Shown piece by piece: positions 28,281-58,000 of a stretch of 64,000 bases of DNA. Source of the DNA: Nodosilinea sp. FACHB-131 (GTDB taxonomy: Bacteria; Cyanobacteriota; Cyanobacteriia; Phormidesmidales; Phormidesmidaceae); assembly GCF_014695395.1 (NCBI RefSeq), contig NZ_JACJOF010000025.1, positions 124,001 through 188,000 of the forward strand, read 5' to 3'. Position 1 is the first letter of the stretch; the number at the start of each line of letters is the position of its first letter. The notes below the pieces were generated by a model that was not told the origin of the DNA, searched no databases, and saw only the letters and a program-made list of their open reading frames with translations. A program made the translations under genes and the position numbers.

Positions 28281-29684
28281 TCAGTGGGTGGTGAGCCTAG
28301 GCAGCTTCACAACGCCCCGGCGCAGAGCTACAACTGTGCCCCCCGACAACAGCAGTAGGGCAACTCCACCAATGCCTAGGGTGCTAAGCGATGCCCCCGA
28401 TGAATCATTGTTGAGGGCCGCCTGGGATTTGCTTAGGTAGTCCTGCACGTAGGGGTAGCTGGGGTTGAGCTCGCTGACCTGGCGAAAGCTGGCCAGGGCG
28501 CGCTTAAACTGACCCCGCTCAAACTGGGTCACTGCCGTTTGGTAGAGCTGAGAAACGCCGCTGGGGGCAGGCTCGACGTTGGCCTGGGCCAAAAACTCGT
28601 TGACGACGCCCATGGGAATGACGAAGTTTGCCCCCTGCACCTGACTGCCCGTGGTAGGGTCAACTTTAGCAAAGGTGGCAATGCCGATCGCCTCACCCGC
28701 CTCGTTGAACACTGGCCCACCACTGTTGCCGCTGCTCATGGCGGCATCGGTTTGCAAAATATCCCAGCCGTCAGCCATGGTTTTGCGGGCGCTGACCAGC
28801 CCAGCGGTGAGGGAGGCCTCGACCGCTTCTTGCTCGTCGATTACACCTGCGCCGGGGTAGCCAAGAATGAACATGCGATCGCCTGCCGCCAGCGCTTTAT
28901 CGTCTCCCAAGGCCACAGTGGGCATGTGGGTGGCCTCAATTTTGAGAATCGCCACGTCTTTACCGGGGGCAGGTTCGCCAATGGCTTTGACGGTGGCTTT
29001 TTGGCCCTGCTCAACGATTTGGTCGCGGGCGGTAGCCCCCATCGCCGCATAGATTTTGGTATCTATAGCATCAAGCGACATGTGGTGGGCGAAGTATTTG
29101 GCGTGGGCTTGCAGGCAAAGCTGCACAAACTCCTGGGTGCCCATCAGCGCCCCAATCGCCTCCTTGTAATAGCCGTCGCCCAGTTCATTCCACAGCGATT
29201 TGCAGCTAGAGACAGCGACTTCCTCCAGGGCGCTGTCGGCCAGCATTCCCTTAATGTCGTCTTGCTCTGAGGAGACCACGTGGGCATTGGTGACCAGGTA
29301 GCCATCTTCGGTGACCGCCAGGGCCGAGCCGGTGGTGCTGACTTCGGCCTGCTCTTGCACCCGCGTTGAGATCGGGGTGAAATAGGCCAGGGGGTCAGCT
29401 AACACCGTTTGAATGATGGCGACAAACACCTGCTGCTCAGAGGTATATTCGCCGCTGGCCGCTTTTTTGCCCAAAGCCTGAGCGAGCTGGGCCATTTTGT
29501 CATCGTTGAGGTCGTAGTCGGGTACCGAAAATTCGGCATTGTGAACAGTTTGAATGATCAGGGTGCCGGGCTTGTTTTGCTCGGCCAGCTGGCTGGGACT
29601 GAGGGCGGTGGTTTTGCCGCAGCCGGTGAGGGCAACGGTGAGCAGGCTAGCGGCGATCGCCACGGACTTGAAGAAGCGTGTCAT
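28281..29684 (-). CDS. Lipoprotein trypsin-like serine protease (HtrA-like) with TPR-like tail
   Basis: A 467-residue protein starting at the ATG at 29682-29684, which has AAGGA upstream. A lipobox LTGC with Cys22 anchors it to a membrane. The protease domain has the full triad: His near 133 (VTNAHVVS), Asp near 243 (GKDVAILKIE) and Ser near 320 (SSGNSGGPVF). No PDZ domain is seen; instead a helical repeat-like stretch (FERGQFKRALASFRQVSELN) and a C-terminal membrane segment follow. It lies 119 bases after the TPR-CHAT gene with its own copy of the shared promoter-like motif, suggesting co-regulation. Confidence 0.88.
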   Translation of the reverse strand: MTRFFKSVAIAASLLTVALTGCGKTTALSPSQLAEQNKPGTLIIQTVHNAEFSVPDYDLNDDKMAQLAQALGKKAASGEYTSEQQVFVAIIQTVLADPLAYFTPISTRVQEQAEVSTTGSALAVTEDGYLVTNAHVVSSEQDDIKGMLADSALEEVAVSSCKSLWNELGDGYYKEAIGALMGTQEFVQLCLQAHAKYFAHHMSLDAIDTKIYAAMGATARDQIVEQGQKATVKAIGEPAPGKDVAILKIEATHMPTVALGDDKALAAGDRMFILGYPGAGVIDEQEAVEASLTAGLVSARKTMADGWDILQTDAAMSSGNSGGPVFNEAGEAIGIATFAKVDPTTGSQVQGANFVIPMGVVNEFLAQANVEPAPSGVSQLYQTAVTQFERGQFKRALASFRQVSELNPSYPYVQDYLSKSQAALNNDSSGASLSTLGIGGVALLLLSGGTVVALRRGVVKLPRLTTH

Positions 29685-29751: not shown

Positions 29752-29779
29752 TGTATGTCTGGGCGGGGCAAGGTTATGC
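29752..29779 (-). promoter_or_regulatory. Shared bipartite promoter-like motif, copy 6
   Basis: On the minus strand GCATAAC begins at 29779 and CAGACATA begins 18 bases later. The upstream box is the weakest of the six, but box-to-box distance and CAGACATA are exact. It lies about 70 bases upstream of the protease start, inside the gap after the TPR-CHAT gene. Confidence 0.45.
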
Positions 29780-29803
29780 AAACTGTGGGGAGCGGGCTTG
29801 GGG

Positions 29804-34853: not shown

Positions 34854-34881
34854 TATAGGTCTGGCCAAAGTGAACTTATTC
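34854..34881 (-). promoter_or_regulatory. Shared bipartite promoter-like motif, copy 5
   Basis: On the minus strand GAATAAGTTCAC begins at 34881 and CAGACCTATA begins 18 bases later. The end of CAGAC lies 34 bases upstream of the TPR-CHAT start codon. Confidence 0.6.
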
Positions 34882-35115
34882 ACTTTTGTGCCACGCTGCT
34901 TGCACAGCCCTGCAGAGTAAGCGGGCAGACGAATGAACAAGTTGTCTAGATAGTGGTAGGTGTTGCTTTGGCCAACGCGATCGCCAGCAGTTTGATCGTC
35001 GTTGAGAGCAGCTACAAAGCTTTGTTGATCGGCTTCCCAAGAACTGGCTCCCTAGTTCGCACCAACAGCAAGAGCCGTTAGGATTGAGCTATCGCTTTGT
35101 GTTCAGAGGATGGCT

Positions 35116-38708: not shown

Positions 38709-38871
38709 GGGTTTGGGGAGATGGGTGGATGAGGGGAGGAGGGGATGAGGGGTGAGAGATGGGTGGGTGAGTAGGCAGGGAGCAGATGAAGATTTTTCAG
38801 AAGAAGAAATGAAACTTCCTCTAAACCCATCACCCTCCTACCCATCTACCCATCCACCCCCCTACCCTTCT
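38663..38871. repeat. Octamer-armed inverted element, copy 4 (between the two export ABC genes)
   Basis: A G-rich arm at about 38663-38775 and a C-rich arm at about 38825-38871 flank some 45 AT-rich bases (TTTTTCAGAAGAAGAAATG in the middle). The element spans the whole gap between the ABC genes and runs into the start of the downstream one. Confidence 0.85.
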
Positions 38872-41204: not shown

Positions 41205-41205
41205 G

Positions 41206-41399
41206 GGAGTGGAGGGTAGGAGGGTGGGCGAGTGGATGGGTGGATGCGTGGATGCGTGGGAGTAGAGAGTGGGCAGTGAGGGTAGGGGATGAGTGGAGAA
41301 TTGAACGAGGGAACGATGGCACAGCATTCAAAACCAATACCCGCCTACTCACCTGCCCACCTACCCGCCTACCCATCCACCCCCTACCCATCAACCCCC
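41206..41399. repeat. Octamer-armed inverted element, copy 6 (between HlyD and C39 transporter genes)
   Basis: G-rich arm about 41206-41294, unique spacer with GAACGAGGGAACGATGGC, C-rich arm about 41341-41399. The last residues of the HlyD protein (KGVDG and stop) come from the C-rich arm, and the ATG of the C39 transporter follows the other arm directly. Confidence 0.85.
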
Positions 41400-42862
41400 T
41401 TCACCGCCTCATCCCCAAACCCGGCCCACTGCTTGAGAATCGGCAGCACGTAGGAGATCGGGCGGCGCTTTTCGACGGTGATGCGGACGGTGGTGGTCAT
41501 GCCGGAAGTCATGGGCTGGTTGGGGCCTTGGGGGGAGGCTGACCAGCGCAATTGGCTGGGATTGTTGGGGCTGTAGTCGGTTTGCAGGGTGGCGAAGACA
41601 GCGATATGCGGCCCCTCGCCCATGATGCCGGGCAGAATGTCAGGGTGGCCGACCAGTCGGGCGGCCCCAGCCTGGGTGACGGGAAAGCTCGACACCTCGT
41701 CAACCGTGCCGAGAATGCCGCCGTACTCTTCGCGCTTGACGGTGGTGGGGGTGGCCTGGAGCGTCATACCGACGCTGATTTTTTTGCCGTCGCTGACAGG
41801 CAGAAAGGCGACGCTGGTGAGGGGGGTGTTGCTGTCCTGGGCTGCGAGCATCGCTACAGGCATGCCTGGGTCAAGGCGCTGGCCGGGCTGGGCCATCACC
41901 TCGATCACCTGACCGTCGTGGTTGCTGGTGATCGTCCGATTGCGGGTGAGCTGCTCGGTGAGCTGGGCGATCATGGCTTCGGTGTCTTTGATTTCTTTTT
42001 GGCGCTGGGCCAGGGTAGTGCTGTCTTGCTCGCGCTGGGTGGCGGCGCGGGCGTCGAGATCTTGAAGTTGGGCTTGAAGGTCGGCGATCCGGTTGAGGTT
42101 GTCGAGGTAGTCGCGCTGGGCTTCGGTGTCGCGCAGATCTAGGGATTCAAGCTGAGTTTCGACATCGTTGACTTCGTTTTGTAGCTCCTGGTATTCCAGC
42201 TGTACGCTCAGCACCTCTTCTTGGGACATGGCTCCCTCGTCAGCCAAACGCTGCCAGTTCTCCCAGCGGGTTTGATAGATGGGCAGCCGCGCTTGCAGAG
42301 TGGTAAGCCGCTGCTGAAGGGTTCGGCGCTCCTGGCGCAGCGATTCTTCGGCGCGGGACTGCAGGGTGGGGGTGAGGGCTTGCTGCGATCGCAAATTCTG
42401 CTCCAGTGCTCGCCGCTGCTGGGCGATCGCCCCCTGATCTAGCCCACTGCGCTCGCTGTTTAACCGCTGGGCAGTCTGGTCTTGGATTTGCAGCTGAGTC
42501 AATTTCTCCTGGGCCAGCCGCAGCTGGGTCTCTAGCTCAGACTGATCGAGCACCGCTAGAATGTCGCCTACCTTCACCCAGTCCCCTGGCTTCACCTCGA
42601 TTGAGCGCAGGGGGCCAGCACCGGGCGACTGCGCCGTCACCACATCGCTGGGATAAACCAGCACCCCCTGCCCAGTGACAGTTAAAGGAATCTGACCCAG
42701 CACGCTCCAGGCCGCCCCGGCACTGACCAACAGGCCCAGAGCCGTCAGCGCCAGCCAGCGCTTGGGGCTGACCACCTGCACCAATTGATCGAGCTGTTCG
42801 GGAGAGGCGCTGCGCTCTAGCGCCTGGGGGCGAAATAGGTTGCTATGCTTTGCCGGTACCAT
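41384..42862 (-). CDS. HlyD-type membrane fusion protein of the NHLP export system
   Basis: A 492-residue adaptor. The ATG at 42860-42862 has CGGAG eight bases upstream. One membrane segment lies near residues 36-58, then a lipoyl half (GDWVKVGDILAVLDQSEL), long coiled-coil helices (about 120-310), the second lipoyl half (NHDGQVIEVMAQPGQRLDPG) and a beta-barrel part. Length and gene order match the secretion protein of NHLP bacteriocin systems. It connects the ABC pair to the outer membrane. The C-terminus has been rewritten by an octamer element. Confidence 0.9.
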   Translation of the reverse strand: MVPAKHSNLFRPQALERSASPEQLDQLVQVVSPKRWLALTALGLLVSAGAAWSVLGQIPLTVTGQGVLVYPSDVVTAQSPGAGPLRSIEVKPGDWVKVGDILAVLDQSELETQLRLAQEKLTQLQIQDQTAQRLNSERSGLDQGAIAQQRRALEQNLRSQQALTPTLQSRAEESLRQERRTLQQRLTTLQARLPIYQTRWENWQRLADEGAMSQEEVLSVQLEYQELQNEVNDVETQLESLDLRDTEAQRDYLDNLNRIADLQAQLQDLDARAATQREQDSTTLAQRQKEIKDTEAMIAQLTEQLTRNRTITSNHDGQVIEVMAQPGQRLDPGMPVAMLAAQDSNTPLTSVAFLPVSDGKKISVGMTLQATPTTVKREEYGGILGTVDEVSSFPVTQAGAARLVGHPDILPGIMGEGPHIAVFATLQTDYSPNNPSQLRWSASPQGPNQPMTSGMTTTVRITVEKRRPISYVLPILKQWAGFGDEAVKGVDG

Positions 42863-42914
42863 GGTCAAACTCCGGGAGAAAGGCAGAAGAACGAAGAACG
42901 AAAAAAGAAGAATC

Positions 42915-43080
42915 CGTAGGGTGGGTTAGGCGATTGTTCTCCTATGCCACCAACCGTTAACCTGGCGCTCCGCCGTAACCCACCCCCGCCCATGACTAGA
43001 GGCTTGATTTGAGTGAGCGGTGGGTCAGGCGGTTGGACTACGGTGCAGAGCCAGGGCCAATCGCGATGACCCACCCTACT
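42915..43080. repeat. Two GTAGGGTGGGT-type palindromic repeats in the operon gap
   Basis: GTAGGGTGGGTTAGGCG pairs with CGCCGTAACCCACCC (42916-42986), and GCGGTGGGTCAGGCGG with ATGACCCACCCTACT (43017-43080). They fill the gap between the cyclic-nucleotide-binding-like gene and the HlyD gene and resemble widespread cyanobacterial repeats. They could reduce transcription of the export genes relative to the precursors. Confidence 0.7.
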
Positions 43081-43126
43081 TCTGGAGCGAGATACTTCAT
43101 CAGAGGCGCAAATCCAAAGTGCAAAT

Positions 43127-44158
43127 CTAAAATTGAGCCTGGGTTTGCAGCCGCTGCACCAGCCACTCAAACCGGGCCTCAGCCAGGGCCACCCGCTCCA
43201 ACAGCTGGCTGTCGAGATCGGTATTAGGAGCCAAAACGCCCAGTTTTTCCAGCATGAGCTGCTGTTTGTTGGCCAGCAGCAGCGCCAGCAGCCGGTAGAG
43301 TCGGGCGGCAAAGGGGCGATCGTAGAGCAGTTTGGCCAGCAGCCGCCAGCGGGGAATCGTCAGCAGGGTAGACTCACGCAGGGCGATCGCCCCCACCGCC
43401 GCCGGGACCGAATCCAATAGCAGGGTTTCACCCACTAAATCGCCCCGCGACAGCCGGGCAAATTCGGTCTCTGCTCTATCTGGATCTGGCATGAGAGCGG
43501 TCACTACTAGGTTAGGCGGCTGCTCAGCAGCGCTTAGGCCCACCGCCCCTTCTAGCAACAAATGCAGGGCATCAACTGGATAGCCGCAGCGCAATAGAGG
43601 CGTACCGGGTTTTACAGATTCGACTTGCCCCACCGCCATCATCCAGTCCAGATCGCTGTCGGCCAGTTCGGCAAACACTGTCGCCGCTTCTTTAAGCTGA
43701 AGCTGGCCGAGCAGGGCCACGCTGTAGCCCATCTGCGCCGCCCACTGATTGAGCTGGTGCCGCAGGGTCAGAGCTACTACCCGGTAGAACGGGGCGGCGA
43801 AGTCGACATCGTCGGCCAGCTTTTGAGTGAGAGCGGCCAGGGGAAGTGCCAGGACAGTGGCATCGGTGAGGGCAAACAGGGTGGATTGTGAGAGATAGGT
43901 GGTTATAGCGGGCAGTGCGCCAATCAGCTCCCCACCGGATAATCGCAGGATTTCTTTGGGGGTAGCTTTGCCACTTTCATCAGCTAGTGAGGTCTCTAAT
44001 ATCATTGACAGCTGACCACTGACCACAATCCACAGGTGGTTGAGAGGCTGGTGGGAGGTGTGGAGGCGATCGCCTGCCTGAAGCGATCGCAGTGTGCCGG
44101 TCTGCACCAGCCAATCCACATGTTGCTGGTTAAATTCTCGAAGTAGGGGCGTTGTCAT
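43127..44158 (-). CDS. Cyclic-nucleotide-binding-domain-like protein of the NHLP operon
   Basis: A 343-residue protein with two cupin-like cNMP-binding folds. The first covers about 15-130 (LQAGDRLHTSHQPLNHLWIVVSG, RLSGGELIGALPA), the second about 190-310 (VKPGTPLLRCGYPVDALHLLLEG, LSRGDLVGETLLLDSVP). The second keeps the GE pair of the phosphate-binding cassette, but the usual arginine is not obvious, so ligand binding is uncertain. No DNA-binding domain is seen. Such proteins recur in cyanobacterial NHLP clusters. AAAGGA upstream and a 34-base gap to precursor gene 1 put it in the operon. It may sense the state of the system. Confidence 0.8.
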   Translation of the reverse strand: MTTPLLREFNQQHVDWLVQTGTLRSLQAGDRLHTSHQPLNHLWIVVSGQLSMILETSLADESGKATPKEILRLSGGELIGALPAITTYLSQSTLFALTDATVLALPLAALTQKLADDVDFAAPFYRVVALTLRHQLNQWAAQMGYSVALLGQLQLKEAATVFAELADSDLDWMMAVGQVESVKPGTPLLRCGYPVDALHLLLEGAVGLSAAEQPPNLVVTALMPDPDRAETEFARLSRGDLVGETLLLDSVPAAVGAIALRESTLLTIPRWRLLAKLLYDRPFAARLYRLLALLLANKQQLMLEKLGVLAPNTDLDSQLLERVALAEARFEWLVQRLQTQAQF

Positions 44159-44192
44159 AGCGAAATCCTTTATTTGCTCACACTCAAAACGG

Positions 44193-44468
44193 CTAACGCC
44201 CAAACAGCCGAGATAGCCCGGCAAACACAGCAAAAATTTGGTCTACCGACTCAAAGCCCAGCCCAGCGAATTGAAAGGTCCCTGAGGATGTATTGGATGT
44301 TTTAGCTGGCATAGATCCTGGACAACCACAGCCGCCCGATTGAGTCAAAAGGCCTTCGCTTTGATCGAATATGGAACCCGAAATAAAAATATCTAGCCCG
44401 CCAGAAACTTCGTCTAACTCTGTTAGTGATAGCTCAACGGTGGCGAGATCTAAATCATGCTCTTCCAT
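44193..44468 (-). CDS. Double-glycine bacteriocin precursor peptide 1
   Basis: A 91-residue peptide. The leader of 24 residues ends in LSLTELDEVSGG, the double-glycine site expected for the C39 transporter downstream. The 67-residue core has a glycine/cysteine cluster (QSGGCGCPGS), a Ser/Thr-rich stretch and a hydrophobic, amphipathic end (GLGFESVDQIFAVFAGLS). No gene for a lanthionine, thiazole or radical-SAM modifying enzyme lies nearby, so the core may act unmodified or with one disulfide. It resembles CTB-type cyanobacterial precursors, but I am not sure of the subfamily. Confidence 0.8.
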   Translation of the reverse strand: MEEHDLDLATVELSLTELDEVSGGLDIFISGSIFDQSEGLLTQSGGCGCPGSMPAKTSNTSSGTFQFAGLGFESVDQIFAVFAGLSRLFGR

Positions 44469-44534
44469 GGCTTACAAAATCCTGTCTCTAGATCAATAAC
44501 TAGGTCAGTTTTGGCTTATTCAAACTTAGGAAAC

Positions 44535-44567
44535 ATGCAGAGACATGGTGGAGCCATATCTCTGCAT
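44535..44567 (-). terminator. Hairpin between the two precursor genes
   Basis: ATGCAGAGA and TCTCTGCAT pair, then after one mismatch ATGG pairs with CCAT around a five-base loop (TGGAG). It lies 80 bases after the stop of precursor 2. Without a T-run it may act as partial terminator or stabiliser, making more precursor 2 than downstream message. Confidence 0.5.
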
Positions 44568-44646
44568 GAAAGCCCTGTAGACTAGTACGCCGAGTGGTTA
44601 GAGGGTTAATGTCTAAGGGGCACTCGTCGTTTGGACAGGGGCTTTT

Positions 44647-44934
44647 TTACAGCCCGAAGCCAATCACATCGGAGTTGCCAGAGGCGGTATCAAAGCCAGT
44701 GAGAGAGCTAATGCTGCCAGCACCGTTAGGGCCAGCAAAGCTCACCTGATCCATCTTGATACCCGACTGCTCGAAGAAGCTGCTCGCCCCTTTGAACAGG
44801 CTGCTGATATCGCCTAATCCGCTGACGCCCCCACTGCAATCGGCGAGTTCGCCTGCGGAAAGCTCGGTGATGGCCAGATTAGCGGCCTCTTCAGCTTCGG
44901 CAATGATGTCGTTGGGCTTGATCATGTCAGACAT
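44647..44934 (-). CDS. Double-glycine bacteriocin precursor peptide 2
   Basis: A 95-residue peptide, first gene of the export operon, with a strong ribosome binding site (AAAGGAG). The leader of 36 residues ends in ITELSAGELADCSGG, with the usual double-glycine spacing of hydrophobic residues. The 59-residue core begins VSGLGDISSLFKGASSFFEQ, is rich in Gly, Ser and Phe and lacks cysteine. It shares short similarities with precursor 1 (a GLG start and aromatic, amphipathic helices), so a two-peptide bacteriocin is possible. The shared promoter-like motif lies about 75-98 bases upstream. No immunity gene is recognised. Confidence 0.82.
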   Translation of the reverse strand: MSDMIKPNDIIAEAEEAANLAITELSAGELADCSGGVSGLGDISSLFKGASSFFEQSGIKMDQVSFAGPNGAGSISSLTGFDTASGNSDVIGFGL

Positions 44935-45004: not shown

Positions 45005-45032
45005 CCTATGTCTGACGAGGATGAGCTTATTC
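45005..45032 (-). promoter_or_regulatory. Shared bipartite promoter-like motif, copy 4
   Basis: On the minus strand GAATAAGCTCA begins at 45032 and CAGACATAGG begins 18 bases later, upstream of the bacteriocin precursor operon. Confidence 0.6.
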
Positions 45033-45123
45033 ACGATGTGAGCGAAGATTTTGGGTATAATCTCTAAGTCTGATTGACTGCTCTCGATTTACGCAATAAT
45101 AGAAGTAATTCATTCATAAAATT

Positions 45124-46184: not shown

Positions 46185-46212
46185 CTTATGTCTGGAGCAG
46201 CCAAACCTATGC
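46185..46212 (-). promoter_or_regulatory. Shared bipartite promoter-like motif, copy 3
   Basis: On the minus strand GCATAGGTTT begins at 46212 and CAGACATAAG begins 18 bases later. The first box differs at two positions from GAATAAG, the second box is exact. Confidence 0.5.
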
Positions 46213-46271
46213 AGTGGCGGCTAGTTGGCGATTCCGGTACGGATCGCTACGCGAATCACCCCGCCGAGCGC

Positions 46272-48620: not shown

Positions 48621-48648
48621 TCTATGGCTGAGACTTGGGAACTTATTC
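48621..48648 (-). promoter_or_regulatory. Shared bipartite promoter-like motif, copy 2
   Basis: On the minus strand GAATAAGTTCCC begins at 48648 and CAGCCATAG begins 18 bases later, about 75 bases upstream of the caspase start. With copy 1 it forms an inverted pair in the divergent gap (GAACTTATTC and GAATAAGTTC about 150 bases apart). Confidence 0.6.
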
Positions 48649-48797
48649 GGTGATGCAAAAAGTTAGCGCAACCAAGTTATGCAATTGATCACCGTCGCGG
48701 CCATGGCCCCAGGTTTTGAGTTCATGGACTCTAGAACTGTAGATTTACTGCCGCGTCAAACGGGTACGCAAAGCTGACGTTGTCTTTGCAGAAAACT

Positions 48798-48825
48798 GAA
48801 TAAGTTCACTCCACCCAGCCCTATA
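48798..48825 (+). promoter_or_regulatory. Shared bipartite promoter-like motif, copy 1
   Basis: GAATAAGTTCAC begins at 48798 and CAGCCCTATA at 48816. It faces the sigma-like gene. If CAGCC...TATA is the -10 region, transcription would begin near 48830, which argues against the in-frame ATG at 48831 and for a start further in. Confidence 0.6.
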
Positions 48826-49031
48826 GGCTGATGTCGTCCCCGGTAGAGGGTTACTCATGCGTCATTCTGCATCGGGTTTTGGTCAATGCTGCTGCACTAG
48901 GCCGTTGCCGAGTGCAAGGGCCAGGTTTATCGGCAGAGTCGCAGCATCCACAACCGATTGAGGCAGAAGTTACTGTCGCTGAGCACCATCGCCAAGTAGT
49001 CGCTCCTAGTCACAACTCAGAGCCCAAAATC

Positions 49032-50354
49032 ATGACGATATTTCGATACTGGCAACTGATTCGCATGACCAGTGCAGGTGAGTATCAGGCCCATTTGCTG
49101 TCTCAGGTACAAGAGTGGCTTCAGCAAGCCTTCGCCGACTCGCTAAATTACACCGATGCTCAAACGAGCGATCTGCAAAAGGCGTTGCTCGATCGCTGGC
49201 GTTCGAAAGCAGCCCAGGCCGATCTGGCTTTGCTCAGTTTGCGCTGCTTTGTCAGCCACCAAATCCGCGATGCCTGCCACCGACTGGCGCAGAAATTTGG
49301 CCATCATTACGGCTTTACTACCGCCGAGCTGCTGGCAGTGGTGCTCGATGACGACGGGCGATCGCCCTCTCCCTATCGCCCCTTTACCCAGCAAATTTTA
49401 GAGAGCTACGACCCGGATAGGGCTGCCTTGAGCACCTGGAGCAGCCGCCTGACCTGCAACCACCCGGAGCTAGACCAACTGCTGCTCGAAAAAGGGCTTT
49501 ACCGGATTAGCGATTGGGCAATTCTCAACGACACTAGCCTGGGGCAGGTGGAGAAAATTTTACGCACCTTTCATCTGTGCAGCGAGTACGAGGTGACGGC
49601 GGGGGTAGCGCTGTTGGAGCGGTATCAGCGGGTGTACTGTCGCGATCGCCTAGCTCAGCGCCAAAACGGTGGCGCCCGCCGCTGCCAGCCGCCCAAATCC
49701 GGGCAGCTGCGAGAAATGAACACGACCCTTGAGCAGCTCAAGCACCTGGCCGACCAGCTGCGCCAGTACCGCATCCATGTGCGAGGGGGCTCGAGTGGCC
49801 CCTACCGGCCCGAAGTCCCCGACTGGGATCAATTGCCCGACTTGACTCCTGTGCCCGATGAGCAAGAGGAATTTTTAGGGGCCTTTCGTCAGGCCGTTGA
49901 GCAAGGGTTAGAAGGGGCGATCGCCCAGGTGATTGCCGCCAACATTACCCGTCTCAGCCAAAAGAAAACCCCAGAGGACAGCGTTTACGTTCAGGGGCTG
50001 CACCGCTTCTACTGCCTCGGTCAAACCATTAGCGCTCTGGCAACGGAGTTGGGTCTCGGCAACTTTGCCAAAGCTCGACGGCTGCTAGACCTCCAGCGCC
50101 TGCGCGCCGATGTGCGCCATCGACTGATTCCTACTTTGTATGAACAGGTGCGGCAGGAGGCCGCTGACTACAGTTCCCCCGAGCAGCTCCAGCGGCTCGA
50201 TCAAACCCTAGAGGCTATTTTGGCTGAGCACATCGACGGCCTGATAGCCGAAGACGCCGCCGTCGCCCAAAGCCCTAACCGCTCTGCACCCACAAGTCTA
50301 TTTGCCCGCCAGCTCTGCGCCACAATCCACCAGTTCATGCCCGCCTTGGAGTAA
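49032..50354 (+). CDS. Sigma-70-like regulatory protein (cyanobacterial, uncharacterised)
   Basis: A 440-residue protein from the ATG at 49032; the frame is open to an ATG at 48831, but those residues look non-coding. A middle segment (ILESYDPDRAALSTWSSRLT followed by the IRDACHR-like helices before it) recalls sigma region 2, where YDP..G..STW is typical. A later one (FYCLGQTISALATELGLGN, then KARRLLDLQRLRADVRHRL) recalls a region-4 helix-turn-helix. I know such divergent sigma-like proteins next to DUF1822 and CHAT-CHASE2 genes in filamentous cyanobacteria. It has the shared promoter motif, so it may drive the regulon and itself. No experimental role is known to me. Confidence 0.6.
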   Translation: MTIFRYWQLIRMTSAGEYQAHLLSQVQEWLQQAFADSLNYTDAQTSDLQKALLDRWRSKAAQADLALLSLRCFVSHQIRDACHRLAQKFGHHYGFTTAELLAVVLDDDGRSPSPYRPFTQQILESYDPDRAALSTWSSRLTCNHPELDQLLLEKGLYRISDWAILNDTSLGQVEKILRTFHLCSEYEVTAGVALLERYQRVYCRDRLAQRQNGGARRCQPPKSGQLREMNTTLEQLKHLADQLRQYRIHVRGGSSGPYRPEVPDWDQLPDLTPVPDEQEEFLGAFRQAVEQGLEGAIAQVIAANITRLSQKKTPEDSVYVQGLHRFYCLGQTISALATELGLGNFAKARRLLDLQRLRADVRHRLIPTLYEQVRQEAADYSSPEQLQRLDQTLEAILAEHIDGLIAEDAAVAQSPNRSAPTSLFARQLCATIHQFMPALE

Positions 50355-50400: not shown

Positions 50401-51546
50401 ATGAGCCCTTCCCCAGACCCAATCGATTTTGAATTTGAGCCGCAGCGGGCCACCACCGTCACCCTCTCGACCGAAGCTGTGAACTGGGCAGTGCAGCGAT
50501 GCCAGCAGGTGTCGGATGGGGCACAGCAGTGGCCGACCTTTTTGCGGGCTATGGCGCTGCGAGGATTGCAGCAGTGGCTAGAATCGGGTGCCCTAGATTT
50601 AGCTCTCTACTACGATTCTCAGCAGCCCCCCACCCCTGGCGTTAACGGTCGGGTGGGCGACTATCGCCTCTGCCTGGTGGCCCAGGGCAGCCTCAGCGAC
50701 GATGAGGTGGCCATTCCAGCCGCCACGGTGAACGACACCAACGGATTTGCTCACCTCTATATATTGGCTGAGGTACAGGAAGAGGTAGATCAGGTGACCA
50801 TTTTGGCCGGGCTGCGGCGCGATCGCCTGCTAGCCCAGCGCCAAACCCTGGGCCTTACCCTCCAGCCCGACGGCACCTACCGCATCCCCATCCGCTGCTT
50901 CGACACTACTCCAGAAGACCTGCTGCTCTATCTCACCTGCCTCAACCCAGATCAGATCAGTGGCCCAGAGTCTACTTCAGCAGCTGCGATCGCCGTGCCC
51001 CAAACCGTCCCCCAGCCCACACAAACCCGTGACTCGATTAATGTCGGGAGCTGGCTACTCAACCAGCTCGACGCCGTAGCCGACAGTCTGTCCTGGACGC
51101 TAATGCCGCCGCTGGCCCCGGCCACCGCTATGCGATCCATGAGAACTCCTGTGGAGCAGCTTGAAGATATTCTGCGAGACTTGCGGCCCACGGGCGTGAC
51201 TATTCCGCCTAATGCGCGCGGTGCTTACACCGACCTGCAAACCATGGGGCTGCCCTTTCGTCTCTATGCCTTGACCTGGACGTTAGTTGAGCCTCATCCC
51301 CCAGAATGGACGCTGTTTTTGTTCTTAGGCCCTGCCCCCGGCGAGCAGCTACCCCCCGGCACCCGTCTGATCGTGCGCGACGCCGCTGCCGTGCTGGCCG
51401 AGCAAACCCTGGCCCAGGGCAATGAACGCGGCTTTCTCTACGCCCAGGCGATCGGCACCTGGGATGAAGCGTTCACCGCCACCGTTGAGCTGCCTAACGG
51501 CAATACCCTCAACTGGCCTCCGTTTGTGTTTCAGCCTGAGGGGTAG
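50401..51546 (+). CDS. DUF1822 family protein
   Basis: A 381-residue protein from the ATG at 50401; a GTG at 50359 is in frame and possible. It begins with the DUF1822 part (AVNWAVQRCQQVSDGAQQWPTF, LRGLQQWLESG) and continues with YILAEVQEEVDQVTILAGLRRD and GSWLLNQLDAVADSLSW. DUF1822 is of unknown function and is nearly always encoded beside the sigma-like gene upstream. The gap to that gene is only 46 bases, so one operon is likely. It may act as a regulatory partner, for instance an anti-sigma-like protein; this is inference from gene order. Confidence 0.85.
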   Translation: MSPSPDPIDFEFEPQRATTVTLSTEAVNWAVQRCQQVSDGAQQWPTFLRAMALRGLQQWLESGALDLALYYDSQQPPTPGVNGRVGDYRLCLVAQGSLSDDEVAIPAATVNDTNGFAHLYILAEVQEEVDQVTILAGLRRDRLLAQRQTLGLTLQPDGTYRIPIRCFDTTPEDLLLYLTCLNPDQISGPESTSAAAIAVPQTVPQPTQTRDSINVGSWLLNQLDAVADSLSWTLMPPLAPATAMRSMRTPVEQLEDILRDLRPTGVTIPPNARGAYTDLQTMGLPFRLYALTWTLVEPHPPEWTLFLFLGPAPGEQLPPGTRLIVRDAAAVLAEQTLAQGNERGFLYAQAIGTWDEAFTATVELPNGNTLNWPPFVFQPEG

Positions 51547-51760: not shown

Positions 51761-54178
51761 ATGTCCTACCGCCTTACGGTTCACAAAATTGACCAGAGCT
51801 GCCTGTTTGAGCTGGCTTGGGGTCAGGGGCAGCGTCTGACCGCCAGTCTGGCGTTTCCGGCTCAGCTCTTGGATCTGTACGAGAGCTGGCGGCGGACCTA
51901 TCTGGGTTACTACAAACAGTCGCTGCGGGGGCGGGCTGGGGCTATGGGCCAAGTCGCTGTCTTGGAGGTCGATTGGCACAGCCAGCTGGTGCAGGCCGAG
52001 GCGCGGCTGCTGTCGGAGTTTCACACCTGGCTCAAGCACGGCGACCTGTTTGACTTGCGGGAAGAGTTGCAGCGGGCGGCCCAGAGTAAGGGTAAAGGCC
52101 AGGCGCTATTTTTGACCTGTACACCGTTGGATTTAGCCCGACTACCTTGGGAAACTTGGGAGTTTGGCCCTCAGATGCAAATTGTACGATCGCCCGCCAC
52201 TATTCGCTCTGCTACGGGCGATCGCAGTGAATTTCGCCGGGGTAAAGCCCGAGTGCTGGCCATTTTAGGAGATGAAACGGGGTTGAATTTTGCCGCCGAG
52301 CGCAGCGCCCTCAATGCCCAAAAGTCTCTAATGGATATTCACTACGTGGGTTGGCAACCGGGCGAAAATGCCGCCGACCTAAAGCAGCGCATTTGCCAAA
52401 CCATTGCCGACCATCAGGGCTGGGACGTGCTGTTTTTCGCCGGACACAGCAACGAGGAGGCGCTGCTGGATGGACAGATTGCCATTGCGCCCAACACCGC
52501 TATTTCCACCAAAGAATTATCCCCTTACCTACAACAGGCCCAGCAGCGGGGACTGCAATGTGCCCTGTTCAACTCGTGTAGCGGCTTGGATATTGCCCAG
52601 GGGCTGGTCAATCTTGGCCTCAGCCAAGTAGTAATTATGCGCGAGCCCATTCACAATGAGGTGGCCCAGGCGTTTTTGGTGCAGCTAGTGCAGCGCTTAG
52701 CCCGCTACGAAAATGTGCAGGAGGCGGTGAGAGGAACCTGTGAATTTCTCAAGCTGGCGAAGCACCTCACCTACCCTTCGGCCTACCTGTTGCCCTCGCT
52801 GTTTTATCATCCCCAGGCGGTGCCCTACCAGCTTCAGCCGACGGGGTGGCGATCGCTGCGGCGACGGTGGCGACCTACGCAACGGGAGGCGATCGCCCTC
52901 GGCGCGCTGGCCCTGCTCAGCCTGCTGCCCCTGCCCCAGCAGTGGCTGCTCGATCAGCGAGTAGCGGTGCAGGCCATATATCGCGACCTCACGGGCCAGG
53001 TGGCCGATGGTACTACCCCGCCCGTAGTGCTGGTGCAGGTCGATCAGGCTACCTTTGTGCAGCAAGGCATCAGCGACTTCAAACCCATCGATCGCGCTCT
53101 GCTGGCCGATATCATCACCCGCTTAAACGAACTCAATGCTCCGGTCATTGGCATCGACTACCTTCTCGACCTGGCCCAAGCCGACCACGACGCCACCCTC
53201 AACCAGGCCCTGAGCGAGACCATGGCTAACCAGGCTTGGCCCGTTTTTATCACAACCCAAAACCCTGGCGGTGATTGGACTGAGCTGTACTTTCAGGTGG
53301 CTGACCCCTACCGGGTGCTGCACGGCGATGCTTGGGTACCGCAGTGGCACATTCTGCCGCTGCGGGCTTCGCCTGACTTCCGCACCCCTTTTAGCTACCA
53401 GCTAGCCTTGGCCTACCGGTTGAGTCAGCGATGGTCGAAGACCGGCCCTCAAGGGCCATCGCGCCCCAACCGTCCCCAACCCGGCCTCCCTGGCCCCCCG
53501 CTCGAAGCCCAGGTGCAGGCCTACCTGAGAGAGCACAACGATGTTACCCCATCCCCCTGGGCCAAACTGCACCCCATCACGCACATGTCTTATCGGTTTA
53601 GGCAGCGCTGGCTACAACCCCTGCTTGATTTTTCGATTCCCCCCGAACAGATTTACAGGTCAGTGTCCGCCGCCGCGCTGCTGGCAAGCCCAGAGGGTGA
53701 GGTGACACAACTCGATGGTGTTCGCCTAGAGGAAGCCGTGGTGATTGTGGCGGCAGGGGGCTACTACGCTGCCGGGGTTGCCGCCGACGGCGATGACAAC
53801 CTGCCCATGCCACCGGCTCTCGGCTATTGGTTTGGGCAGCAGGGCGACAATCGCATCGACCTAACTGGTGGCGAGGCCCATGCCTACATGACCCACCACC
53901 TCTTGACCGACCGGCTAGTGGTGCCCATCCCCGACCTGTGGCTGATTTTGGTCGCCGCCCTGGGGGGCAAGGCCCTGGCTCTGTATCTAAGCGATCGCCC
54001 TAAACTAGGCCGGGTCAGGCTGGGGACTGCTCTAGGAACAGCCACAGCGGGCTACGGCTGGCTGAGTCTACAGCTTTACATTGGCGGAGCGGTGCTGTTG
54101 CCCTGGCTGCTGCCGTCACTAATGGTTTGGAGTTACGCACTACCGCATTTTAAGGAGGCTAACCGTGAGCAACAATAA
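51761..54178 (+). CDS. CHAT-CHASE2 protein
   Basis: An 805-residue protein. The N-terminal CHAT domain has its caspase-fold dyad at His near 228 (DVLFFAGHSNEE) and Cys near 270 (ALFNSCSGLD). A membrane segment near 380-395 leads to an extracytoplasmic CHASE2 sensor domain (VVLVQVDQATFVQQG, APVIGIDYLLD), and three membrane segments end the protein. It would turn an outside signal into protease activity inside the cell. The start at 51761 has no ribosome binding site, since an octamer element abuts it (CCACTCCC before ATG). It follows the DUF1822 gene and overlaps the next gene by 14 bases. Confidence 0.87.
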   Translation: MSYRLTVHKIDQSCLFELAWGQGQRLTASLAFPAQLLDLYESWRRTYLGYYKQSLRGRAGAMGQVAVLEVDWHSQLVQAEARLLSEFHTWLKHGDLFDLREELQRAAQSKGKGQALFLTCTPLDLARLPWETWEFGPQMQIVRSPATIRSATGDRSEFRRGKARVLAILGDETGLNFAAERSALNAQKSLMDIHYVGWQPGENAADLKQRICQTIADHQGWDVLFFAGHSNEEALLDGQIAIAPNTAISTKELSPYLQQAQQRGLQCALFNSCSGLDIAQGLVNLGLSQVVIMREPIHNEVAQAFLVQLVQRLARYENVQEAVRGTCEFLKLAKHLTYPSAYLLPSLFYHPQAVPYQLQPTGWRSLRRRWRPTQREAIALGALALLSLLPLPQQWLLDQRVAVQAIYRDLTGQVADGTTPPVVLVQVDQATFVQQGISDFKPIDRALLADIITRLNELNAPVIGIDYLLDLAQADHDATLNQALSETMANQAWPVFITTQNPGGDWTELYFQVADPYRVLHGDAWVPQWHILPLRASPDFRTPFSYQLALAYRLSQRWSKTGPQGPSRPNRPQPGLPGPPLEAQVQAYLREHNDVTPSPWAKLHPITHMSYRFRQRWLQPLLDFSIPPEQIYRSVSAAALLASPEGEVTQLDGVRLEEAVVIVAAGGYYAAGVAADGDDNLPMPPALGYWFGQQGDNRIDLTGGEAHAYMTHHLLTDRLVVPIPDLWLILVAALGGKALALYLSDRPKLGRVRLGTALGTATAGYGWLSLQLYIGGAVLLPWLLPSLMVWSYALPHFKEANREQQ

Positions 54179-54881
54179 CTGGATACTGGCCGGATTGATG
54201 ACAGCGGCAATGGTGAGCAACTTGGGTCTGCCGGTTGCGATCGCCCAGCCAGCTCCCGAGCCATCCCTAGCGTTTGAGCAGGTGTTCGACTTCTTTCGGG
54301 GCCAGGTTCAAGACCGCCGCCGGGGCCAGGTCAGCGGCTCTAGACCGGTGAGAGATAGCGCACCTCCCTGTCTCATTAACCCTGGCGATAGCGAAACTCT
54401 CTGGCACCAGAAGCCGTTGTTTTTGCTGCGGGGAGACATATCTCAAATTGAGGTACAGCCCCTAGGTGATTCCGCTGCACAGCTTTGGGATGCCGAACCA
54501 ACTGCAACCGAGTCGGGCCTGTTAACTGCCGCCTACGACGGCCAACCACTGCGGCTGGGCAGCCCCTATCAGATGTTGATCTACGAAGACCAGCCGATTT
54601 TTGGGTCAGTGTTAACAGTGCAAATCCCCCTTCAGATTATGGCTGCTGGTGAGGAGCGCGATCGCATTGCCGCCGATCTTGACCAGCTCACCGCTGAGCT
54701 GGCTACTGAAAAGGCCGATGCTGAGGCGATCGCCCAAGCCAAAGCCGACTACTTTATCGAAAATGAGCTGCCTGCCGACGCTCTGCAAATTCTTTTCACC
54801 ATTGCAGATCCCTCCGAAGAACTGATCGCGGCCCGCGAAGCCCTGGCCACCGACATTTGCAGTGAGGAGTTACGGCCCTAG
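54165..54881 (+). CDS. Small exported protein of the CHAT-CHASE2 operon
   Basis: A 238-residue protein starting with GTG, supported by a strong TAAGGAGG seven bases upstream that lies inside the CHAT-CHASE2 gene; the coupling implies tight co-expression. A signal peptide (cut after VAIAQ) precedes a domain with a single mature cysteine (APPCLINPGDSETLW), a beta-rich part (PLFLLRGDISQIEVQPLGD, LGSPYQMLIYEDQP) and a C-terminal helical part. It resembles DUF928-type exported proteins in layout, but I cannot assign it. It could be the ligand or partner of the CHASE2 sensor. Confidence 0.75.
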   Translation: MSNNNWILAGLMTAAMVSNLGLPVAIAQPAPEPSLAFEQVFDFFRGQVQDRRRGQVSGSRPVRDSAPPCLINPGDSETLWHQKPLFLLRGDISQIEVQPLGDSAAQLWDAEPTATESGLLTAAYDGQPLRLGSPYQMLIYEDQPIFGSVLTVQIPLQIMAAGEERDRIAADLDQLTAELATEKADAEAIAQAKADYFIENELPADALQILFTIADPSEELIAAREALATDICSEELRP

Positions 54882-55055: not shown

Positions 55056-58000
55056 ATGGCTATTTTTCCTGCTTTGAGCAAAGCCTTGCTGACAAGGTCA
55101 CTCCCGCTGACTATGACCCTGGTTTTGCTCGCAACAGCAGGAGCAACGCTCACAGCCCAGGCGCAAGTTATACCCGATGCCACCCTGGGAAGTGAAGCGT
55201 CTACCGTGACCCCTGATGCGTTGGTGCGTGGCAGCGAAGCCGACCTGATTGAAGGCGGTGCCCTGCGCGGCAGCAACCTGTTCCACAGCTTTCTAGAGTT
55301 CAATATTGATGCCGGACAGCGGCTTTACTTCGCCAACCCGGCGGGGGTCGCATCCATTCTCAGCCGCATTACCGGGGGCAACCCCTCAGCAATTTTTGGC
55401 ACCCTGGGTGTCGATGGCGCAGCCGATTTGTTTTTGATCAACCCCAACGGCCTAGTGTTTGGCGAAACCGCCACCCTCGATATTCAGGGGTCGTTCTACG
55501 CCAGCACTGCCGAGGCGATTCCGATGGGCGATGGAGTCTACAGCGCTATCGCCCCAGAGCAGAGCACCCTGCTAACGGTGAACCCCAGTGCCCTCTTTAG
55601 CACCTACCTGAGCGAGTCGTCTGGCAATATCGAAAGCCGAGCCCCACTGGCCGCAGGCGAAAACCTCACCCTGGCCGCTAACCGACTGGACTTGCAGCGG
55701 CAGGTAGCAGCCGGAGGTGATTTAACCCTGCTAGGCAATACCGTGCAGATTCGCGACGCGGTAAATGCCCCATTTGTAGGATTCGCCGGGGGCGATCTGC
55801 TGGTGCAGGGCAACGAGCAGGTCGATATTGTGGCTCTCAGCCACCCCGACAGCGGGCTGTATAGCTATGGCGATATGGTGCTGCGGTCTGCAAACCCCGT
55901 CGGCGGCGACGCCCACTACTGGAGCGGCGGCAACTTCACTGTAGAAACCCTAGACGGCAGCGGCGGTAGCTTATTTAGCCCCATTGACCCCATCATCCGT
56001 ACATTAGGAGATGTGTTTATTGAAGACTACCTAGGTAGTTCGCTTCATGTCTTGGCCGGGGGATCCGTTACGATTGGTACTGCTGAAATTACAGCACCAG
56101 ATCCTGGCACTTTAGGCATTGATTTTTTGCAAGAAACTATTACCCTTTCAGACAAAACTGTTGTTCAAATAGATGGTGGTGCACAACCCACATTAGATAT
56201 TAGGGCTGGAATCAGCCCCGACGCATTAGGAATTCCGCCTCTTGAATTTGAAACTGGCTTTGATCCTGCTACGGATAGTTTTTTTGGAGATAGATTTAAT
56301 ACAGAAGCACCTTCAAGTGCAAACATCGTCATTGGCGACGTTCTAATTACTGCCCCCAACGGTTTGGTTCTTTTGACAAATCAATATCAGGCCAACACAA
56401 ATTTATCCGAGGGCAGTATTACTATTGACGGCAGCGGAATCTACCGCAACGGCATTAATACTAGCAGGCCGAGTGAACAGGGTGGTACGGTTTATCTTGA
56501 CGCCCGTAGCGATGTCTCTGTTATCAACAGTTTTATTGATACTACTTCAATAGGAAATGTGGGTGATGTAGTGATTAATGCTAATGGCACAGCTCGCATA
56601 GATGGCCAAGATGGCAGTCGGGCTACCGGAATCTTTGCCAATATAAGCAGTAGTGATGTAGGAACTGGCGGCAATATTCGCATTAATGCAGCTAATCTTG
56701 AAGTGCTCAATGGAGCACAGCTTAACGCTTCAGTCTTTGGCAGTGGGCAGGGAGGTAATGTTGAGCTAATCATCCGCGACACTGCTCGCATCGCTGGCTT
56801 TAATCCAATAACTGGGCTACCCAGTCAAGTCGCTAGTACTCTTCAGCCTAGTGGGAGGGGTGCTGGGGGGAATATTCAAATAATGGCCAATGTCCTTGAG
56901 GTTTTGGATGGAGCACAGATTGATGCTTCGACTTTTGGAATAGGTAATTCAGGCACCATAGAATTAGGCATTAACGAGAGAATATATGTTGCTGGATTTA
57001 ATTCCATAGTCAATATTCCAACTGGAGTTTTTAGCGCGATTGCATCTACAAAAAGCAGCACGGGTGGCAATATTGAAATAGCCACTAGAACTCTTGAAGT
57101 CTTTGATGGAGCGCAGATTAGCACCTCGGTTTTTGGAACAGGAGATGCAGGTGATGTAATTCTAAACATTACTGAACAAGCTCGTTTTGTCGGTTCTAAT
57201 CGTACTGATGGCAGTGTTACAGGAGTTGTAAGCAGCATTCAATTGGGAAGTGAAGGCACAGGGGGAGATATTCGGATTAACGCCCGCAATCTAGAAGTTC
57301 TTAATGGAGCGGCATTAAGTACAGAAAATTCCGGAAGAGGAAACGCAGGCAACGTAATTTTGACAGTTGCGGAACAAGCTCGCTTTGAAGGTTCTAGTCC
57401 TACAGGCTTCGATAGTGGGGCTTTTAGCCTGGTTGGTCCTAATGGAGTAGGAGCTGGTGGAAATATACAGATAACAGCCAGAAATCTTGAAGTGCTCAAT
57501 GGTGCCATACTTAGTGCCTCTACCTTCGGATTAGGCGATGCTGGCAGTGTAAATTTAAACATTACTGAACTAGTTCGCTTCGTTGGATTCAGCCCTATTG
57601 ATGGGGACCTTAGTGGAGTCTTCAGTAGTGTTGAACCAGGCGTAGAGGGTGCCGGTGGAAACGTTCAGATAAGAGCTAGAAACCTTGAAGTTCTCGATGG
57701 GGCTGTGCTCAACGCCGCGACTTTTGGTCTTGGTGATGCAGGCAGTGTGGTTTTGGACATTTCCGAGCTAGCCCGATTTTCTGGCACAGATGCTATAGGT
57801 TCGCCCAGTGGAGCATCCAGCAGTGTTCAACCTACGGGAGAAGGCACAGGCGGAAATATTCAGGTTAGAACTAGAAACTTAGAAATTTCGCAAAATGCAA
57901 CTCTGGACACGACTAGTTCAGGGGTAGGCAATGCGGGGAGTATCAATTTAGTAACCTTAGAGCAGCTATTAGTTGATGACGGAACTATAGCAACCTTTAC

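Follow-up and report, generated by a model that had tools for sequence, protein, structure and literature searches.

A probable divergent sigma-70-family factor of Nodosilinea, its candidate two-box promoters, and its DUF1822 and CHAT-CHASE2 neighbors

Loci in which an extracytoplasmic function (ECF) sigma factor is encoded together with a DUF1822 protein and a protein of the EACC2/caspase type, whose variable C-terminal part may be CHASE2, were described in eLife in 2021 (PMC8195603), which proposes a transcriptional output through the sigma factor (here and below, statements on the published systems refer to the passages at hand of each paper). A comparable arrangement is found in the window analyzed here, the whole of a stretch of 64,000 nucleotides from Nodosilinea sp. 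FACHB-131 (contig NZ_JACJOF010000025.1, positions 124,001 to 188,000), in which a gene starting at position 49032, encoding a probable divergent sigma-70-family factor, and a DUF1822 gene lie beside the gene of a caspase/CHAT-type protein whose C-terminus is variable. Unlike in the published systems, the third protein here is a CHAT-CHASE2 protein, which exceeds the cut-offs of the Pfam CHAT and CHASE2 models and has no match above cut-off in NCBIfam, no search under the name EACC2 having been made; the passages of PMC8195603, for their part, name neither a promoter nor targets and do not describe how the sigma factor is built.

In the type III-E CRISPR system (Science 2022, PMC10028731), the RNA-guided TPR-CHAT protease Csx29 cuts Csx30, the inhibitor of CASP-sigma, a sigma factor that has predicted sites in its own locus. 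The Nodosilinea locus is similar in combining a sigma factor and a CHAT-domain protein with a putative inhibitor, DUF1822, and with predicted sigma sites in the locus itself, although the CHAT domain is carried here by the CHASE2 protein, and DUF1822 would stand in the place of the inhibitor. Sigma-70 genes also occur within metacaspase operons, in Myxococcus among others (PLoS One 2012, PMC3501461); these operons resemble the present locus in the association of a sigma-70 gene with a caspase homologue, but belong to other phyla, and the passages on them name neither DUF1822 nor a promoter. The neighborhood of sigma factor, DUF1822 and caspase-type protein is, then, already known (PMC8195603), whereas the promoter motif and the regulon described below are apparently new, neither having been found reported in the available portions of the open-licence literature, including PMC8195603, PMC9679502, PMC11119718, PMC3501461, PMC12691664 and PMC10028731.

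The principal features of the locus, in window coordinates, are the following:

49032..50354, + strand: candidate divergent sigma-70-family gene, 440 aa
49071..49499, + strand: sigma domain 2-like region (residues 14-156, which hold YDPDRAALSTW), from the VIA alignment to sigma chains
49500..49856, + strand: middle region (residues 157-275), with an invariant WAILNDT at residues 162-168, matching the middle of family A5 (see below)
49977..50165, + strand: sigma region 4-like helix-turn-helix (residues 316-378), from profile comparisons with ECF factors and A5
48797..48823, + strand: the gene's own promoter-like motif, TGAATAAGTTCACTCCACCCAGCCCTA (22.5 bits), with the upstream box TGAATAAG and the downstream box CAGCCCTA
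50401..51546, + strand: DUF1822 gene, proposed regulator of the sigma factor (PF08852, E 8.7e-24)
51761..54178, + strand: CHAT-CHASE2 gene (Pfam CHASE2, E 1.3e-15; CHAT, E 3.3e-6)

Taken as a whole, the locus is best explained by a divergent sigma-70-family factor that reads promoters of the form TGMATAAG-N11-CAGAnnTA in front of its own and of local genes, an account that is highly probable, although the switch formed with DUF1822 and the CHAT protein is a less certain part of it. The 49032 factor would direct RNA polymerase to promoters of this form, and would turn on its own gene together with those of DUF1822 and CHAT-CHASE2 (positive autoregulation). The nearby TPR-CHAT, caspase, HtrA-like, TPR and bacteriocin-like genes would be turned on in the same way. 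DUF1822 may, at a further and less secure step, keep the sigma factor in an inactive state, and a signal received by the CHASE2 sensor might then allow the CHAT protease to free the sigma factor from DUF1822, which would produce a self-amplifying switch. The original prediction, which read the gene as a sigma factor, appears to have been largely right.

The assignment of the protein to the sigma-70 superfamily is based on sequence profiles, with the homology established for its family rather than for the window protein alone. This family (A1) consists of 76 of 81 aligned sequences, following the omission of L005, L055 and L077 (truncated or frameshifted) and of the copies L050 and L064. The link to recognized sigma factors is provided by A5, a family of 11 sequences of approximately 390 aa (L155-L165), which precedes DUF1822 in other cyanobacteria. 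Three of the 11 A5 proteins (L155, L164 and L165) were scanned by HMM, with the remainder assigned by alignment, and these three reach 109.3, 105.5 and 69.8 bits with TIGR02937, the NCBIfam sigma70-ECF model (curated cut-off 42.9 bits), and also exceed the Pfam Sigma70_r4 cut-off. The A1 and A5 profiles align with a probability of 99.1% (E 1.1e-18) over 322 columns, corresponding to residues 61-404 of 440, and the parts of A1 also match A5 separately, the N-terminal part with 94.2%, the middle part with 96.1% (E 3.4e-9) and the C-terminal part with 92.4% (E 5.1e-7). The A5 family is thus like the 49032 family in its homology and in the DUF1822 gene that follows it, and unlike it in the recognition of its three scanned members by curated sigma models.

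This kinship is distant, with 15% identity between the aligned profiles, and part of the A5 signal is due to the shared helix-turn-helix, given that a set of LuxR-type regulators used as a control reached 39.9% against A5, against 0.5% with A1. In the reverse search, the A5 HMM matched 71 of the 76 A1 members at E<0.1, 56 of them at E<1e-5, and none of 1520 shuffled sequences. When the family is compared directly, profile against profile, with the 12 sigma factors of its own genome (cyanobacterial, 6,158,524 bases, with the window lying within it), the signal is weak, the best result being that of the C-terminal part against three ECF factors (residues 276-385, probability 60.4, E 8.4e-5; LuxR-type control 1.5%). 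As A5 bridges the gap left by this comparison, the 49032 protein belongs, judged by its profiles, to a branch of the sigma-70 superfamily. An identification of the proteins of approximately 390 aa before DUF1822 as HetZ was rejected, as no result supported it and sigma-70 models were matched instead. The A5 family possibly corresponds to a named alternative sigma factor.

Both segments on which the sigma-factor reading was originally founded are present in the protein, the region-2-like YDPDRAALSTW at residues 126-136, counted from the 49032 start, and the helix-turn-helix near residues 333-352. The first start codon in frame is found at 48831, although 49032 is the likelier start, given that the start codons of the relatives fall mostly at this position or within a few residues of it, and that the motif ends at 48823. 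The closest relatives are proteins of Nodosilinea, with 83-85% identity. The two sigma-like parts are separated by approximately 160 residues, including WAILNDT, as the region 2-like part ends at about residue 156 and the region 4-like part starts at about 316, so the protein is not an ECF (group 4) factor, which is defined by regions 2 and 4 separated by fewer than 50 residues (as quoted in PMC11119718). The same paper (BMC Genomics 2024) presents a census of cyanobacterial sigma-70 factors (SigA-SigR and further families) obtained with sigma-70 domain profiles, which would probably miss the 49032 family, since no Sigma70 Pfam domain was seen in its 76 members: the 25 families shown among the 64 Pfam families matched include no such domain, and the others match at most one member. 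Weak Pfam matches of the protein, such as DinB_2 (E 0.0027) and DNA_pol_delta_4, were rejected as chance, being scattered among the relatives (DinB_2 in two of 76). Two other sigma-like proteins of the own genome, of 214 and 209 aa (L112 and L115; C9 and C43), also remain below the TIGR02937 cut-off, with 38.4 and 27.9 bits.

The AlphaFold2 model obtained from the 76-member alignment has a mean pLDDT of 88.3, and its structural re-alignment with VIA places 8x6f_E in the top row (Z 8.3, rmsd 3.5, 102 residues of domain 2, within residues 14..156). While a Z near 8 may be non-specific in helical proteins, the sigma domain 2 fold was accepted because sigma or sigma-holoenzyme entries fill all of the 50 rows displayed. 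Together with the profile link of residues 61-404 to the sigma-70 family, this best alignment of domain 2 with sigma factors bears out the structural expectation that had been attached to the sigma-factor reading.

A number of results on the protein weigh against this explanation. The 49032 protein matches no sigma model in Pfam or NCBIfam and no sigma factor among the Protein Data Bank (PDB) sequences, and the search of the PDB sequences with the family profiles likewise returned none. It is missed by the TIGR02937 scan of its own genome (E<=0.01), in which 12 other places exceed the cut-off, and is not itself among the 71 family members matched by the A5 HMM; TIGR02937 matches 13 of the 76 members, weakly (best E 5.7e-4). 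The Foldseek search of the model against the PDB is also weak (best E 0.16, sigma-S, 6omf_F). Modelled separately (pLDDT 90.9), the C-terminal domain has no clear match in Foldseek or VIA, with unrelated proteins in the best rows, while two chains of the Thermus RNA polymerase holoenzyme reach Z 4.6 (4oio_F) and 4.5 (4mq9_F). The strong divergence, the unusual middle region with its invariant WAILNDT and the missing match to curated sigma models would suit a protein that, despite its sigma-like fold, works as an ordinary DNA-binding regulator or no longer binds RNA polymerase. The alignment of both ends and the middle with A5, whose scanned members exceed the curated sigma cut-off, and the organization of the motif as two boxes at a fixed spacing make this very unlikely.

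The motif had first been noticed in the window as GAATAAGTTC, followed 12 bases on by CCTATA, in front of the sigma gene and of the TPR-CHAT gene, and in a weaker form in front of the caspase gene. The copy of GAATAAGTTC at 48798-48807 (+) has TATA 14 bases later, and the spacing is identical at 34881 (-), with the weaker copy at 48648 (-). The combination GAATAAGTTC-N8-16-TATA occurs twice in the 6.16 Mb of the genome, both times within the window, and the reversed pattern does not occur; GAATAAGTTC alone is unremarkable, with 10 copies against nine of its reverse.

Unseeded motif discovery in approximately 350 bp upstream of the family genes (76 of the 81 regions, including that of the window, with L035, L050, L055, L064 and L077 omitted) recovered TGCATAAGttc....CCAGAnnT, whose third position may be A or C, giving the consensus TGMATAAG-N11-CAGAnnTA. 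The motif exceeds 8 nats in 58 of the 76 regions, with a log-likelihood of 567.8, while the best motifs of five dinucleotide shuffles reach this level in 24-31 of 76 regions, with log-likelihoods of 142.5-155.4. A control search around the sigma stop codon produced an even stronger “motif” (793.2, with sites in 68 of 75), which is taken as conserved coding sequence and not counted as a fair null. The distance between the upstream motif and the chosen start codon varies from 58 to 319 bp across the family, which indicates that this motif is not a piece of coding sequence with a set position. Outside the model, an A-rich tract precedes the upstream box, and position 27 is A in 100% of 57 own sites and 96% of 91 other sites. 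If transcription starts approximately 10 bases past the last A, the boxes would lie at about -36 to -29 and -16 to -10, an arrangement resembling that of a promoter.

Besides the own motif of the sigma gene, the window contains five copies, which are given here with the genes that they precede:

34856..34882, - strand: motif before the TPR-CHAT gene, the best copy of the window (24.6 bits), beginning 57 bp before the start codon
29804..34825, - strand: TPR-CHAT protein gene (1673 aa; TPR models), proposed regulon member
29754..29780, - strand: motif before the HtrA-like protease gene (23.0 bits), 96 bp from the ATG at 29684
28281..29684, - strand: HtrA/DegP-like protease gene, proposed regulon member (TIGR02037, E 1.2e-26, 93.6 bits, below the cut-off of 416.2)
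45007..45033, - strand: motif before the bacteriocin-like gene (22.7 bits), also found before a 92.6% identical gene in L003
44647..44934, - strand: CTB-family bacteriocin-like peptide gene, proposed regulon member (NF038167, E 8e-6, 25.9 bits, below the cut-off of 32)
46187..46213, - strand: motif before the TPR gene (21.2 bits), beginning 58 bp before the start codon
45232..46155, - strand: TPR protein gene, proposed regulon member (TPR_12, E 2.5e-16)
48623..48649, - strand: weaker motif before the caspase gene (14.7 bits, not significant alone), with GAATAAGTTC exact, in a region that aligns with L003
46272..48548, - strand: caspase (C14) gene, proposed regulon member (PF00656, E 1.3e-19)

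The scan of the window with the matrix learnt from the 76 upstream regions, one of which holds the window's own site, found six sites above 13 bits, five of them above 21 bits. In 100 dinucleotide shuffles of the window, there were 75 sites above 13 bits in total (0.75 each), with a mean best score of 13.3 and a highest of 22.6. The sites of the window exceed this expectation, and the shared upstream motif is real; the copy before the sigma gene, which had been thought the best, is exceeded at 22.5 bits by that of the TPR-CHAT gene. In the whole genome, the degenerate pattern has six sites, five of which are in the window, in front of the sigma, TPR-CHAT, HtrA-like, bacteriocin-like and TPR genes, while the reversed control has none. 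The sixth site has no open reading frame (ORF) at the usual distance, the nearest choice being 240 bp away. The proposed control of the factor over itself and its neighbors is supported by these computations, the part on the neighbors resting on the six sites of the window.

The window and 80 related loci (1,178,568 bases, all 81 sources being taken, copies included) contain 172 sites above 13 bits, against nine in the reversed sequence, and 61 of the 172 precede the sigma family gene itself. Among 100 other sites (at least 14 bits), 91 have an ORF downstream and nine have none within 400 bp; the longest ORF was taken as the target, and some assignments may be wrong. The sites start 54-66 bp ahead of the start codon in 35 of these 91 cases, where a uniform distribution would give 3.2. 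The 76 target proteins scanned, out of 86 distinct target ORFs (10 short or doubtful ones were omitted, one being the sigma gene itself), include 33 with TPR_1, 14 with CHAT, nine with subtilase and seven with RTX repeats, and the TPR-CHAT protein of the window is among the 76. Relatives of the caspase, DUF1822 and CTB-bacteriocin-like genes of the window are also found as targets elsewhere. Genome G118 (L120-L149) has 17 copies of the motif, with none in the control, distributed over 15 contigs, and its regulon is apparently larger and dispersed, unlike the local one of the window.

The association of gene and motif is also seen across 292 genomes drawn from the phylum, of which 139, from the own class, formed the main test, and the other 153 were counted afterwards. 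The sigma family gene was found in 32 genomes, none of them from another class, by a search that scored only some of the first-look candidates of each genome and may have missed a few genes. In the 20 genomes with strong gene matches (E<1e-100), the pattern has 140 matches, against 35 of the reversed pattern, compared with 160 against 127 in the 107 gene-negative genomes of the class. The co-occurrence put forward earlier as a check was therefore recovered, in that an excess of at least 3 over the control is found in 16 of the 20 gene-positive genomes and in six of the 107 gene-negative ones. A Mann-Whitney test gives p = 5.7e-10 within the class and, when the other classes serve as the comparison, p = 4.2e-10; inside a single family, with eight genomes against 19 and its weaker gene matches omitted, p is 0.0019, kinship being ignored in all of these values.

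These counts also hold the remaining evidence on the unfavorable side. No clear motif is found in 18 of the 76 upstream regions, and in four of the 20 gene-positive genomes (G011, G062, G123 and G251) the excess stays below 3. Where the gene matches are weaker, in 12 genomes, the excess is small (30 against 17). A second search found no homologue of the gene in the six gene-negative genomes of the class that do have the excess, and 13 of the 153 gene-negative genomes of other classes have it too, the total of the latter being mildly raised (179 against 107). This mild excess in the absence of the gene indicates that reversing the pattern does not provide a perfect null. Both it and the four gene-positive genomes that lack a clear excess would suit a different arrangement, in which another factor, either an activator working with the housekeeping sigma factor or another alternative sigma factor, reads the motif, with the 49032 gene being one of its targets. 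The TIGR02937 cut-off is exceeded at 12 other sigma-70 places of the own genome, and the two boxes could form an operator. Such an arrangement is unlikely, in view of the way the motif excess tracks the gene, both across genomes and within one family, of the fixed spacing of the boxes and their preferred distance to start codons, which look promoter-like, and of the clustering of the sites around the gene, seen in five of the six sites of the own genome, eight of 10 in G002, eight of 10 in G066, five of seven in G207 and six of seven in G245.

The 49032 protein, as the probable sigma factor reading these promoters, may find its partner in DUF1822, which is the next gene downstream, as the original prediction had stated (PF08852). 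The DUF1822 gene lies directly downstream of the sigma family gene in 63 of 67 loci, and a CHAT-CHASE2 match is found by tblastn within the locus in 47 of 57. Among 20 DUF1822 genes without this sigma family beside them, picked by hand from the listing rather than at random, 14 follow a sigma gene, recognized by HMM or alignment, and 11 of these sigma genes are A5. Five of the 20 are preceded by ORFs of 220-255 aa, of which three match TIGR02937 below its cut-off (E 1.1e-8, 4.1e-10 and 4.7e-5) and two have no match; the remaining four lack an ORF of this kind immediately upstream. DUF1822 is, therefore, a recurrent neighbor of sigma genes. Two of the short ORFs before DUF1822, L166 and L173 (220 and 255 aa), match no model, but contain sigma region 2-like stretches when inspected by eye, and are perhaps further unrecognized sigma factors.

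Instead of being an antagonist of the sigma factor, DUF1822 might act as a co-activator or an adaptor, or its gene might simply be regulated along with that of the factor, a reading to which close to an even chance is given. In L028, L052 and L071, DUF1822 has a motif of its own (15.2-17.0 bits), which begins 60-63 bp ahead of the gene, as expected of a simple target, and the DUF1822 profile has no relative among the PDB sequences at E<0.05 (best E 0.057). Its wide distribution, in 177 of the 292 genomes compared with 32 for the sigma family gene, also counts against an antagonist, and indicates that any such role of DUF1822 is not limited to the 49032 sigma family. The persistent adjacency of DUF1822 to sigma genes of different families, as is seen in anti-sigma or partner genes, speaks for the antagonist. 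The 22 PDB sequences listed for the DUF1822 profile at E<=1 do not include Csx30. That the locus is a CRISPR-independent, membrane-sensed counterpart of CASP-sigma, which fires its own operon and a local arsenal of genes for TPR-CHAT, caspase, protease and bacteriocin products, with DUF1822 representing a class of sigma inhibitors common to at least three cyanobacterial sigma families, is a more doubtful extension. In the CHAT-CHASE2 protein, FFAGHS and FNSCSG hold the apparent CHAT histidine and cysteine, which are presumed to be catalytic.

A sigma family that is missed by the domain databases gains a concrete promoter sequence, a list of targets and a candidate partner, and DUF1822, widespread as it is in the phylum, gains a working hypothesis as a sigma-factor partner. 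The caspase and CHAT proteins, which are often discussed in relation to cell death or conflict, would in turn be tied to a defined transcriptional program.

The remaining genes of the neighborhood are the following:

54165-54881, + strand: gene of a 238-aa protein after CHAT-CHASE2, with no Pfam match and a relative in 24 of 57 related loci
55056-58628, + strand: gene of a long, repetitive, surface-protein-like protein of 1190 aa, after the sigma operon
38862-44934, - strand: NHLP-type bacteriocin export genes (TIGR03796, 1120.8 bits; TIGR03794, 354.6 bits), adjoining two CTB-bacteriocin-like peptides

The 1190-aa protein resembles, by eye, surface proteins of the filamentous-haemagglutinin type. 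No motif above 6 bits is found just upstream of its gene, which may be transcribed by read-through from the sigma operon or from another promoter. The TPR-CHAT protein contains HLATHA and LSACET, which are taken here to be CHAT-like. To the left of the sigma gene, on the - strand, lie the caspase gene, the TPR gene, the two CTB-bacteriocin-like peptide genes, of which only the first (44647-44934) is preceded by a strong motif, and the NHLP-type export cluster. Beyond DUF1822 and CHAT-CHASE2, this neighborhood is variable, with matches in the 57 related loci to the TPR-CHAT protein in 36, the TPR protein in 17 and the 1190-aa protein in six, and, more rarely, to the caspase in five and to DUF928 in one.

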